Source of the DNA: Paracoccaceae bacterium
Lineage (GTDB): Bacteria > Pseudomonadota > Alphaproteobacteria > Rhodobacterales > Rhodobacteraceae
DNA: 64,000 nt
Assembly: GCA_024226455.1 (NCBI GenBank)
Contig: JAAELR010000260.1
Span: forward strand, 1-64,000
Direction of reading: 5' to 3'
Position 1 is the first letter of the stretch, and each line of letters starts with the position of its first letter. The notes under the pieces were generated by a model, which was not told the DNA's origin, did not search any database, and saw only the letters and a list, made by a program, of their open reading frames with translations. Both the position numbers and the translations under genes were made by a program. Below are positions 4,340 to 8,871 of the stretch, piece by piece.

Positions 4340-5707
4340 TCAGGACGCAGCCGCTTGCCGGGTCTGACGCAGGCCGATCAGTTCTTCGGCCACCAGGAAG
4401 GCCAGCTCCAGCGACTGGCTGGCATTCAGCCGCGGGTCGCAAGCGGTGTGATAGCGATCTGAAAGATCCTCGTCGGACACAGCCCGCACGCCGCCGGTGC
4501 ATTCGGTCACATCCTTGCCGGTCATCTCGAAATGCACGCCGCCCGGCACCGTGCCCTCGGCCTTGTGGATGGCGAAAAACTCCTGCACCTCGCGCAGCAC
4601 CGAATCGAAAGGCCGGGTCTTGTAGCCGGATGACGACTTGATGGTGTTGCCATGCATCGGGTCGCTGGACCAGACCACGCTGGCGCCCTCTTCCTGCACC
4701 GCCTTGACCAGCCGCGGCAGATGTTCGGCCACCGATCCGGCACCGAACCGTGTGATCAGCGTCAGCCGTCCGGGCTCGTTTTCAGGGTTCAACGCCGCCA
4801 TCAGCGCCTTGAGATGGCCGGATGTCATGGAGGGTCCGCATTTCAGACCGATCGGGTTCTGCACGCCGCGGCAGAACTCGACATGGGCGCCGTCGGGTTG
4901 CCGCGTGCGGTCGCCGATCCAGATCATGTGGCCAGATCCGGCGATGGTGTTGCCAAGCGTGGCATCGACCCGGGTCAACGCCTCTTCGTATTCCAACAGC
5001 AGCGCCTCGTGGCTGGTGTAGAAATCCACCGTCGCCAGGTCATGGCTGCGCTCACTGGTCACCCCGGCCGCGGACATGAAATCAAGCGCGTCGGTCAGTC
5101 GGTCGGCGATGTCGCGATAGCGCGTGGCGTCATCGCGGTTGGTGAAACCCAGTGTCCACTGGTGCACCCGGTGAATATCGGCAAAGCCGCCGGTCGAATA
5201 GGCGCGCAGCAGGTTCAGCGAGGCCGCGGCCTGGGTATAGCCCTGCAGCATGCGCTGCGGGTCGGGCACCCGCGCGGTCTCGGTGAAATCGAAGCCGTTG
5301 ACGATGTCGCCGCGATAGCTGGGCAGTTCGACACCCTCGATGGTTTCGGTCGGCGCACTGCGCGGCTTGGCCATCTGCCCGGCCATGCGCCCGACCTTGA
5401 TCACCGGCACCTTGGCGCCGAAGGTCAGCACCATGGCCATCTGCAGCAGCACCTTGAAAGTGTCGCGGATACTGTCGGCAGAGAATTCCGCAAAGCTCTC
5501 GGCACAATCGCCGCCCTGCAGCAGGAACGCCTCGCCGCGGCTGACCGCGCCCAGCTTGCGCTTGAAATTGCGCACCTCGCCGGCAAAGACGAGCGGCGGA
5601 TAGCTGGCAAGCCGAGCCTCAACGGCGTTCAGCTTGGCTTCATCCGAATAAACGGGCATCTGGATTCTCGGCTTGCTGCGCCATCCAGACTTGTCCCAGG
5701 TGCTCAT
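4340..5707 (-). CDS. class II 3-deoxy-7-phosphoheptulonate (DAHP) synthase
   Basis: A 455-aa plant-like (class II) DAHP synthase, which condenses phosphoenolpyruvate and erythrose 4-phosphate in the first step of the shikimate pathway. Metal-site landmarks are present: the cysteine of QGGDCAESF (C68), the histidine of SDPMHGNT, the glutamate of VHFEMTG and the aspartate of TACDPRLN. Length matches the family (about 450-470 aa). Two further shikimate genes, aroB and aroK, lie at 58.4-60.0 kb, so the pathway is dispersed. It is transcribed divergently from the GlxA-type regulator, with 188 bp between the starts and no obvious leader peptide. Confidence 0.95.
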
Positions 5708-5895
5708 TGTCTTTGCTCCGGTTGTTATGTGTAAAACGAAACCCGGTTATAGGGAGCCCAAAAGCCTTCGCCAACCGCGAATTCCACGCTTTCATCGGGT
5801 AACCTGCGCAATCGGTGCAGTTTTGATCGCCACCTCTCTTGATCGCCGGATATAAACCTGTATCGCTCAGAGTACCGGAGCAGGGAAATAGCCAC

Positions 5896-6900
5896 ATGCA
5901 TATGGCACGTCAGATGGTCGAGGTGGCCGATAACGGGCGCAAGCCGCGCCGGATGGTTTTCGTGCTGCTCAACAATTTCTCGCTGCTCAGTTTCTCGGGC
6001 GCGTTGGAAAGCCTGCGCATTGCAAACCGAATGGCGGGAAAAGAGCTGTATGGCTGGTTGCTGGTCGGCGAAGGCGGCGAGGAAATGCGCTGTTCCGCCG
6101 GTCCCTGGTTCCGGCTGGACAGTGACCTGGCAGAGCTGTCGCGTGACGACACGGTGCTGGTCTGTGGCGGCATCGACGTTCAGGCGGCGACGTCCAAGAA
6201 GATGCTGAACTGGCTGCGCCGCGAGGCCCGGCGCGGCGCCACCCTCGGCGGGCTCTGCACCGCGGGGTATACGCTGGCCAAGGCCGGGCTGCTCGACGGC
6301 AAGAAGGCCACCATTCACTGGGAGAATCAGGACAGTTTCGTCGAGGAGTTCGACGAGGTGGAACTGACCAAATCGGTCTTTGTGGTGGACGGCAACCGGG
6401 TTACCACGGCTGGCGGCACCGCCTCTATCGACCTGATGCTGAAGATCATCGCCGACGATTATGGCGAGGACCTGGCCAACGCTGTGGCAGACCAGCTGAT
6501 CTATACCTCGATCCGTACCGATCAGGACACCCAGCGCCTTTCAGTGCCCACCCGCATCGGCGTGCGCCACCCCAAGCTGAGCCAGGTGATCCAGATGATG
6601 GAACAGAACATCGAGGAACCGGTCAGCCCCTCGATCCTGGCCCGCGACGTGGGCATGTCGACCCGGCAGCTGGAACGCCTGTTCCGGCGCTACCTGAACC
6701 GCTCGCCCAAACGCTATTACATGGAGCTGCGCCTGCAAAAGGCGCGCAACCTGCTGATGCAGACCGATATGAGCGTGATCAACGTGGCCCTTGCCTGCGG
6801 CTTTGCCTCTCCGTCGCATTTCTCCAAATGCTACCGGGCGCATTATGACACCACGCCCTACCGCGAGCGCGGCAGTCAGGCGGCGCGGGTGTCCCTCTGA
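5896..6900 (+). CDS. GlxA-family transcriptional regulator (DJ-1/PfpI + AraC HTH)
   Basis: A 334-aa regulator with an N-terminal DJ-1/PfpI-like domain (about residues 17-185, starting RRMVFVLLNNFSLLSFSGAL and including GLCTAGYTLAKAGLL) and a C-terminal AraC/XylS double helix-turn-helix (about 225-325, with DVGMSTRQLERLFRRYLNRS and VALACGFASPSHFSKCYR). I chose the ATG at 5896, preceded by CAGGGA, over a weak upstream start. Family members such as GbdR and ArgR sense small amines, amino acids or betaines. The substrate here is not deducible, and the neighbours (DAHP synthase, rhodanese-HigA fusion) give no clue. Confidence 0.88.
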   Translation: MHMARQMVEVADNGRKPRRMVFVLLNNFSLLSFSGALESLRIANRMAGKELYGWLLVGEGGEEMRCSAGPWFRLDSDLAELSRDDTVLVCGGIDVQAATSKKMLNWLRREARRGATLGGLCTAGYTLAKAGLLDGKKATIHWENQDSFVEEFDEVELTKSVFVVDGNRVTTAGGTASIDLMLKIIADDYGEDLANAVADQLIYTSIRTDQDTQRLSVPTRIGVRHPKLSQVIQMMEQNIEEPVSPSILARDVGMSTRQLERLFRRYLNRSPKRYYMELRLQKARNLLMQTDMSVINVALACGFASPSHFSKCYRAHYDTTPYRERGSQAARVSL

Positions 6901-6922: not shown

Positions 6923-7582
6923 ATGTCCGACAAGCCTCAGATCGCCGTTCAGGCAGCGAATGTGCGCCAGATCCGCGATTGGCTGGACCGCAACGAGATC
7001 GTGCTGGTCGACGTGCGCGAAACCTCCGAATACGAGCAGGAACATATCGCCGGCGCACTGCTGCTGCCGCTTTCCAGTTTCGACCCAGAGGTGTTTCCGT
7101 CGATCCCCGGCAAGAAACTGGTGCTGCATTGCGCGGTCGGCAAACGATCCGAGGCTGCCGGAAAGATGCTGCTAAAACAGGGCCACGAGAAGGTCGTGCA
7201 CATGACCGGCGGCATCGAGGCGTGGAAATCGGCGGGATATCCGACCGAATTCCAGATCCTGCCGCCGAACGAGCAAGCCGCCAAACCGGTGTTCCTGTGC
7301 CCGCCCCCGGGCAAGGTGCTGAAAGAGGAATATCTCGACCCGCTGGGCATCGCGCCAAAGGATCTGGCAAAAGCGGTCGGCGTGCTCGAAGGCCGTATCG
7401 CCGATGTTCTGGCAGGCGAATCATCGATCGGGGTAGAGCTGACCCTGCGGCTGGCGCGGTATTTCTCCACCGCGGCGGATTTCTGGGTGCAGCTGCAACT
7501 GGAACACGATCTGGAGCGCGCGCGCCACTCGCTGGGCGAGGATATCCGCAAGGGCATCACCCCGCGCACATCCACCCTCTAG
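6923..7582 (+). CDS. rhodanese domain fused to HigA-type antitoxin HTH
   Basis: A 219-aa two-domain protein. Residues 9-108 are a rhodanese (VLVDVRETSEYEQEHIAGAL; active loop CAVGKR with C70, then HMTGGIEAWKSAGYPTE). Residues 126-200 match the HigA/VapI XRE antitoxin core: PPPGKVLKEEYLDPLGIAPK, LAKAVGV, LRLARYFSTAADFWVQLQ. The catalytic cysteine is kept, so sulfur transfer or sulfide/persulfide sensing is possible. No HigB/RelE toxin gene adjoins it. It starts 22 bp after the GlxA-type regulator with an AAGGAAG Shine-Dalgarno, so the two may be cotranscribed. A redox- or sulfur-responsive DNA-binding role is my inference. Confidence 0.85.
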   Translation: MSDKPQIAVQAANVRQIRDWLDRNEIVLVDVRETSEYEQEHIAGALLLPLSSFDPEVFPSIPGKKLVLHCAVGKRSEAAGKMLLKQGHEKVVHMTGGIEAWKSAGYPTEFQILPPNEQAAKPVFLCPPPGKVLKEEYLDPLGIAPKDLAKAVGVLEGRIADVLAGESSIGVELTLRLARYFSTAADFWVQLQLEHDLERARHSLGEDIRKGITPRTSTL

Positions 7583-7659: not shown

Positions 7660-8871
7660 ATGAATTTCACCCAAAAAAAACACCTTGGCCAGCCGGAATT
7701 CATTGCGCTGATCGGCATGCTGTTCGCCACAGTGGCGTTTTCCATCGACGCCATGCTGCCAGCGATGAGCGACATCGCCGAAGAACTGACCCCCGACGCC
7801 CCGAATCGCGCCACCCTGATCATCACCAGCTTCGTGCTGGGCATGGGGCTTGGTACGCTGGTCACCGGACCGCTCAGCGACGCTTTCGGGCGCAAGAAGG
7901 TGATATTGGCCGGCGCCGTGGTTTATTCACTGGGCGCGGCGCTGGCCTGGGCCGCCCAGTCGCTGGAACTGGTGTTGGCCGCGCGCGTACTGCAGGGGCT
8001 GGGGGCGGCTGGCCCGCGGGTGGCGGCGCTGGCCATCGTGCGCGACCTCTACGCCGGTCGTCAGATGGCACGGGTGATGTCGTTCGCGATGATTGTCTTC
8101 ACCCTGGTCCCGGCCGCGGCGCCGCTGGTTGGATCCTGGATCATCTGGCTTTCCGACTGGCGCAGCATCTTCATCGCCTTCGTGGTGTTCGCTTTGTGCT
8201 GCAACGGCTGGCTGGCCCTGCGCCAGCCAGAGACGCTGGCCCCCGACCGCCGCCGCCGCTTTTCCATGCGCAAGATCCGCGCCGGCATCGTCGAGGTGAT
8301 GGCCATCCACCGGGTTTCGCTATCGATCTTCGCGCTCGGCTTTGTCTTTGCCATCCTGTTCTCGACCATTTCCACCGTGCAGCAGATATTCGAGCAAAGC
8401 TTTGACCGGGCGGACGAATTTCCCTACTGGTTCGGCGCCGTCGCGCTGCTCAGCGGGCTTGCCAGCCTGCTGAACGCGCATCTGGTGATGCGGCTGGGCA
8501 TGCGCCGGGTAATCGTGCTGACGCTGGTGGTCGAGACGGCGATTTCGGTCGCTCTCAGCTTTGCCATCCTGGTCGGCGCCCTGACCGGACCCGTGTATTT
8601 CGCCGCTTTCGTGCTCTGGATGGTCTCTGTCTTCTTTGTCGCTGGGCTGACCATCGGCAACCTGAACGCGCTGGGGATGGAGCCGCTGGGCCATCTCGCG
8701 GGCCTCGGCGCTTCGATCGTCGGCTCTGTCTCTACCATTGTCGCGGTTATCATCGCCCTACCTATCGGTTTTGCCTTTGACGGCACGCCACTGCCGCTAG
8801 CCATCGGCACCGCGGTCTGTTCGATCTGCTCACTTTTTTTGATCTGTGTGATGGGATCCGAAGATCCCTGA
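7660..8871 (+). CDS. Bcr/CflA-type MFS multidrug transporter
   Basis: An inner-membrane major facilitator protein of about 403 aa with twelve hydrophobic segments and the motif-A loop GPLSDAFGRKKVILAG after TM2. The DHA1 Bcr/CflA subfamily is suggested by FSIDAMLPAMSDIAEEL in TM1 and by the RVLQGLGAAGPRVAALAIVR region of TM4. Probably a proton-driven drug or metabolite exporter; the substrate is unknown. A GTG at 7657 precedes the ATG at 7660 directly, and either could be used. Convergent with the secreted protein gene that ends at 8881. Confidence 0.9.
   Translation: MNFTQKKHLGQPEFIALIGMLFATVAFSIDAMLPAMSDIAEELTPDAPNRATLIITSFVLGMGLGTLVTGPLSDAFGRKKVILAGAVVYSLGAALAWAAQSLELVLAARVLQGLGAAGPRVAALAIVRDLYAGRQMARVMSFAMIVFTLVPAAAPLVGSWIIWLSDWRSIFIAFVVFALCCNGWLALRQPETLAPDRRRRFSMRKIRAGIVEVMAIHRVSLSIFALGFVFAILFSTISTVQQIFEQSFDRADEFPYWFGAVALLSGLASLLNAHLVMRLGMRRVIVLTLVVETAISVALSFAILVGALTGPVYFAAFVLWMVSVFFVAGLTIGNLNALGMEPLGHLAGLGASIVGSVSTIVAVIIALPIGFAFDGTPLPLAIGTAVCSICSLFLICVMGSEDP

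Follow-up and report, generated by a model that had tools for sequence, protein, structure and literature searches.

A conserved rhodanese–HigA fusion protein in Rhodobacteraceae that is very probably not an antitoxin

A HigA-type antitoxin domain that follows a rhodanese in a single protein, with no toxin gene beside it, raises the question of what such a domain does. The gene in question is located at 6923–7582 on the forward strand of the window, the whole stretch of 64,000 nucleotides that was analysed. It encodes a protein of 219 amino acids, with an ATG at 6923 and a stop codon at 7580–7582; the start codon matches those of the orthologs, and an AAGGAAG sequence lies directly 5' of it. 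The rhodanese domain spans residues 16–103 (6968–7231; PF00581, 6.2e-18) and carries the catalytic loop CAVGKRS at 7130–7150, in which C70 is encoded at 7130–7132. The HigA domain spans residues 128–202 (7304–7528) and scores 72.6 bits against TIGR02607, the NCBIfam equivalog model for HigA antitoxins, which has a cut-off of 47.7 bits; the HTH_3 match in the Pfam search is sub-threshold. The original prediction of a rhodanese with an intact C70 loop joined to a HigA domain is therefore borne out. Because the fusion scores above the cut-off of NCBI's 'HigA family addiction module antitoxin' model, annotation pipelines may well label it an antitoxin. Fusion orthologs with 45–76% identity are found in 19 other genera, with dN of about 0.18–0.25 versus dS of about 0.66–1.6. 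An AlphaFold model of the protein (pLDDT 83.6, pTM 0.46) features one half that resembles solved HigA structures and another that resembles rhodanese structures such as YgaP. Because there are orthologs, because dN is lower than dS, and because the modelled halves match solved structures, the reading frame is no chance frame, and the fusion is a conserved protein. At a pTM of 0.46 the mutual placement of the two halves, and hence the distance between C70 and C126, is not fixed by the model.

A HigA gene is normally adjacent to a HigB gene, which usually lies upstream. The fusion gene is instead flanked by a regulator gene and an MFS exporter gene, as the original prediction described, and the missing toxin is not limited to the immediate neighbourhood. 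A search with the HigB model PF05015, which was positive in four control genomes, gave no match in the window's genome (98% complete), where the fusion is the only HigA above the cut-off. HigB was likewise not found in 16 of the 19 other fusion-bearing genomes, and the HigB loci examined in the remaining ones each have their own HigA (this check left out the second HigB of the genome that carries a rhodanese-only relative, G371). A distant HigB partner, named beforehand as a finding that would speak against the prediction, was thus looked for and not found, an outcome in favour of the prediction. The residues that would face a toxin point the same way. In the GraTA complex the toxin contacts GraA at R7, E13, E18, D64, T66 and N72 (PMC6393540). 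The equivalent of N72 is Asn in most HigAs and mostly His or Arg in the fusions, and the equivalent of T66 is Thr or Ser in most HigAs and mostly Ala in the fusions. The hydrophobic positions of the toxin pocket are kept, though these are also core positions, and they are, along with the score above the equivalog cut-off, what favours a role as antitoxin for a distant HigB or a related toxin. Set against the missing HigB and the altered polar contacts, this role is very unlikely and largely refuted, and the fusion is very probably not an antitoxin. The proposed reuse of an antitoxin fold is well supported by the lack of HigB, the lack of any other HigA and the altered polar contacts, and the fusion clearly exemplifies an antitoxin fold that has outlived its toxin through being joined to an enzyme.

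The rhodanese half features a fold with a cysteine in the active-site loop, as is typical of the superfamily, and has every rhodanese feature that sequence and fold can show; its sulfurtransferase activity is predicted. The catalytic cysteine C70 is located in the sequence HCAVGKRS, and C70 as well as the Gly and Arg that follow it in the loop are invariant in 21 orthologs. Most of the HigA half is less conserved than the rhodanese half. The rhodaneses of the single-domain YgaP/PspE type share the fold and the catalytic-loop cysteine, and the YgaP rhodanese was among both the sequence and the fold matches; those proteins are joined to a membrane anchor or to nothing, whereas the fusion rhodanese has a HigA domain attached. 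There are two cysteines in the window protein, C70 and C126. The latter (codon 7298–7300), which was not remarked on in the original prediction and is new in the present analysis, sits in an FLCPxPG sequence where the HigA half begins. Of the 21 orthologs, 20 have it; the one that lacks it is the most divergent and carries a linker cysteine a little closer to the N-terminus. Exactly these two cysteines are found in 17/21 orthologs, and none of 44 distinct ordinary HigAs has a cysteine at position 126. A conserved cysteine pair is a feature of thiol and persulfide sensors, and by conservation the fusion has one, with putative reactivity. A persulfide-forming cysteine paired with a conserved junction cysteine is what a sulfur relay or a dithiol switch would be expected to show, which suggests that such a step may take place between them. 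The two-cysteine pattern also provides a simple and testable handle on the mechanism of the fusion.

The alignment of the HigA half with P. aeruginosa HigA (PaHigA), whose dimer is formed by helices 4 and 5, is free of gaps. In the fusion these helices fall within residues 171–211 (7433–7555), where conservation within the HigA half is highest; together with the tail up to residue 215 they are strongly conserved across 20 genera. Judged by sequence conservation and fold, the dimer helices are kept. Conservation was compared with a set of 44 distinct HigAs, most of them taken from genomes of alphaproteobacteria, and the entropy relative to these HigAs is 0.37 for helix 4, 0.49 for helix 5 and 1.08 for helix 3. 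Helix 3, the recognition helix (residues 156–163, 7388–7411), is charge-poor, and its mean identity is 59% among the fusion orthologs versus 41% among unrelated HigAs; its variability is thus alike in the two sets, as the ratio of 1.08 indicates. The net charge of residues 144–171 is +2.8 ± 1.5 in the 44 HigAs, with a minimum of 0, versus −1 in the window protein and, by clade, −0.1 in that of the window and −1.3 in the other, so that the window value is lower than that of every control; the charge and helix comparisons are descriptive, as the fusion family is one clade and not an independent sampling. In PaHigA, Thr40, Asp43 and Arg49 are essential to DNA binding, and S26, R32 and T40 are contacts conserved between HigAs (PMC6987408). 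The equivalent of Arg49 is basic in 68% of HigAs and in only 1 of 21 fusions. The fusion therefore lacks the positively charged HTH with DNA-contact residues that is characteristic of HigAs. The DNA-reading surface appears degenerate, with its positive charge and most of its basic contact residues gone, and strong DNA binding is probably absent. In comparison to HigA antitoxins (TIGR02607; PaHigA, GraA and C. burnetii HigA), the fusion has the whole domain, the five-helix fold and the dimer helices in common, and differs in being located behind a rhodanese, in lacking HigB, in the loss of HTH charge, in the gain of C126 and in the altered polar toxin contacts.

The best explanation, to which we give about an even chance, is that the fusion is a homodimeric two-cysteine protein for sulfane-sulfur transfer or switching that uses the antitoxin fold as a scaffold. 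The rhodanese half would load sulfur onto C70, with thiosulfate, polysulfide or a low-molecular-weight persulfide as the donor. C70 would then pass the sulfur to C126, where the HigA half starts, or form a disulfide or polysulfide with it. This step would change the seating of the two halves. The HigA half would be a captured antitoxin whose dimer helices have been kept as the scaffold, whose toxin partner is gone, and whose DNA-reading surface has decayed or been converted. We infer the persulfide chemistry of C70, the step between C70 and C126, and dimerisation. This explanation is favoured because C70 and the loop Gly and Arg are invariant and C126 nearly so, because the two-cysteine pattern of most orthologs is foreign to the sampled HigAs, because helices 4 and 5 are conserved and helix 3 is not, because the HTH charge is lost and the Arg49 equivalent is non-basic in 20/21 fusions, and because HigB is missing from the window's genome and most other fusion genomes. 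Counted against it are the conservation of helix 3 in the window's clade, the low pTM of the AlphaFold model, the small number of sulfur genes nearby, and the fact that the charge comparison is drawn from one clade.

A serious rival, which we consider possible and keep below the even mark, is that the fusion is a persulfide- or oxidation-responsive regulator whose dimeric HigA half sits on DNA and is released by the sulfur state of C70 and C126; its target in the window is perhaps the MFS exporter. The HigA HTH fold is complete, the second cysteine is conserved, and in the window's clade the helix 3 sequence LEGRxxD is almost unchanged with R158 conserved, so that helix 3 has some role there, possibly DNA binding; in the other clade the helix is variable. 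The best precedent is MsrR of Corynebacterium glutamicum, an XRE regulator that senses oxidation through one cysteine and whose operon, adjacent to an MFS gene, also contains a sulfurtransferase gene (3-mst) (PMC7532634). This system resembles the window in combining an XRE-type HTH, a sulfurtransferase and an MFS exporter with cysteine-based sensing. It differs in that the proteins are separate in Corynebacterium, and the MFS neighbour is not conserved in the fusion family. Polysulfide-responsive regulators are also represented by SqrR of Rhodobacter capsulatus, whose cysteines become polysulfide-linked (PMC10044876), and by the polysulfide repressor BigR of plant bacteria (PMC5823870). SqrR and BigR share the cysteine-based response to sulfane sulfur and, unlike the fusion, have no fused rhodanese and lie in a sulfide-oxidation gene context. 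They have an ArsR fold, and HTH–rhodanese fusions of the ArsR type exist. The window's HTH charge below all 44 controls and a recognition helix that is not conserved across the family weigh against the regulator, as do the MFS and GbdR-like neighbours, which are common to no ortholog. A sulfur- or persulfide-responsive protein, as proposed in the original prediction, receives indirect support from the invariant C70 and the conserved C126. The DNA-binding part of that proposal is weakened by the lost HTH charge and contacts and by the result of the operator searches; the helix 3 conservation and the MsrR precedent speak in its favour. As a whole, the original interpretation is partly supported.

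Neither the window gene nor the gbdR-like gene is preceded by an exact HigA-type palindrome, and for the window's clade the palindromes from a motif search of upstream regions were marginal at best. A weak HigA-type TAAC-GTTA match is present in one upstream region only, and no convincing shared operator palindrome was found upstream of the fusion genes, which is a further point against the regulator, although the searches are compatible both with autoregulation and with its absence. An upstream motif in the second clade, clade B, was considered as an operator and rejected, as it resembles a GC hairpin with a T run just past acpP and is probably the acpP terminator. In L073, L074 and L076–L078 this hairpin and T run separate acpP from the fusion gene, which suggests that the fusion gene has its own promoter at these loci.

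The two-domain architecture was sought in a Rhodobacteraceae sample of one genome per genus (395 genomes, E ≤ 1e-30), which gave 21 matches, 20 of them two-domain (the window included) and one with the rhodanese half only. The fusion is thus carried by about 5% of the genera sampled (20/395), and the named records that carry it include Seohaeicola, Antarcticimicrobium and Roseivivax. No further two-domain copies were found in samples of the class and the phylum (385 and 398 genomes, respectively), and the class matches beyond Rhodobacteraceae span the rhodanese half only. No paper on a rhodanese–HigA fusion was found in the open-access literature searched, which is not proof of absence. Spread on plasmids was considered and rejected, as no plasmid record spans both halves and the best plasmid match carries the annotation of a stand-alone rhodanese, next to sulP and an MBL hydrolase. 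That match, on a Paracoccus sediminicola plasmid (L081:2307-5330), is a rhodanese gene after sulP and an MBL-fold hydrolase gene, likely an operon of the sulfide-detoxification type. In the rhodanese tree most fusions group together, and the rhodanese-only relative in G371 (L080:4902-5234, 66% identical) is nested within them. Loss of the HigA half may be the simplest account of this relative, in a part of the tree that is unresolved. Its position inside the fusion clade and the higher conservation of the rhodanese half would suit a simple sulfurtransferase in which a vestigial HigA tail serves stability alone. Such a protein is improbable given the strong conservation, across 20 genera, of C126, of helices 4 and 5 and of the tail as far as residue 215.

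The two neighbours in the window are refined versions of those named in the original prediction and are not counted as part of the system. The upstream gene (5896–6900, forward strand) ends 22 bp 5' of the fusion gene and encodes a protein with DJ-1/PfpI and AraC HTH domains that is closest to GbdR; the original prediction called it GlxA-type. The downstream gene (7660–8871, forward strand) begins 77 bp 3' of the fusion gene and encodes a Bcr/CflA-type MFS exporter. The GbdR-like gene adjoins the fusion gene in no other genome, even those with the fusion elsewhere, and the MFS gene is found neither near other fusion copies nor near the GbdR-like regulator in six relatives (16 kb checked). A functional link of the fusion to either gene was therefore rejected as family-wide evidence, and the neighbours, whose arrangement is unique to the window's genome, carry no weight for the interpretation drawn from them. 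In 19 of 23 loci recovered, including the window, the GbdR-like gene has aroG (class II DAHP synthase) as its partner; in the window the two form a divergent pair at 4340–6900, and this pair is conserved across the family.

Tabulation of the other neighbourhoods revealed two recurrent sites. The fusion is located beside acpP at 8 loci, with fabF on the other side in 6 of the 8, and at the paaE–paaK junction of the paa cluster at 6 loci, 2 of which show one flank only. A TauE/SafE sulfite exporter gene is convergent to the fusion gene at two loci only, and few sulfur genes are nearby otherwise. The conserved adjacent sulfur or stress targets of a sensor-regulator are thus lacking, and the contexts are acpP–fabF, paa and others. 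As these contexts differ, the position of the fusion gene yields no single functional partner, and the recurrence of two unrelated neighbourhoods speaks against a regulator of purely local scope. A more specific and rather unlikely form of the two-cysteine switch is a sulfur relay in cis, in which the rhodanese and the captured antitoxin fold would form a dimeric switch that passes persulfide from C70 to C126 and acts on phosphopantetheine-thiol metabolism (CoA or ACP persulfides). If true, it would explain the recurrent sites beside acpP–fabF and the phenylacetyl-CoA (paa) genes. At L068, L073, L075, L076 and L079, terminase-like and portal-like genes lie beyond fabF–mltG and, by eye, resemble a gene transfer agent cluster.
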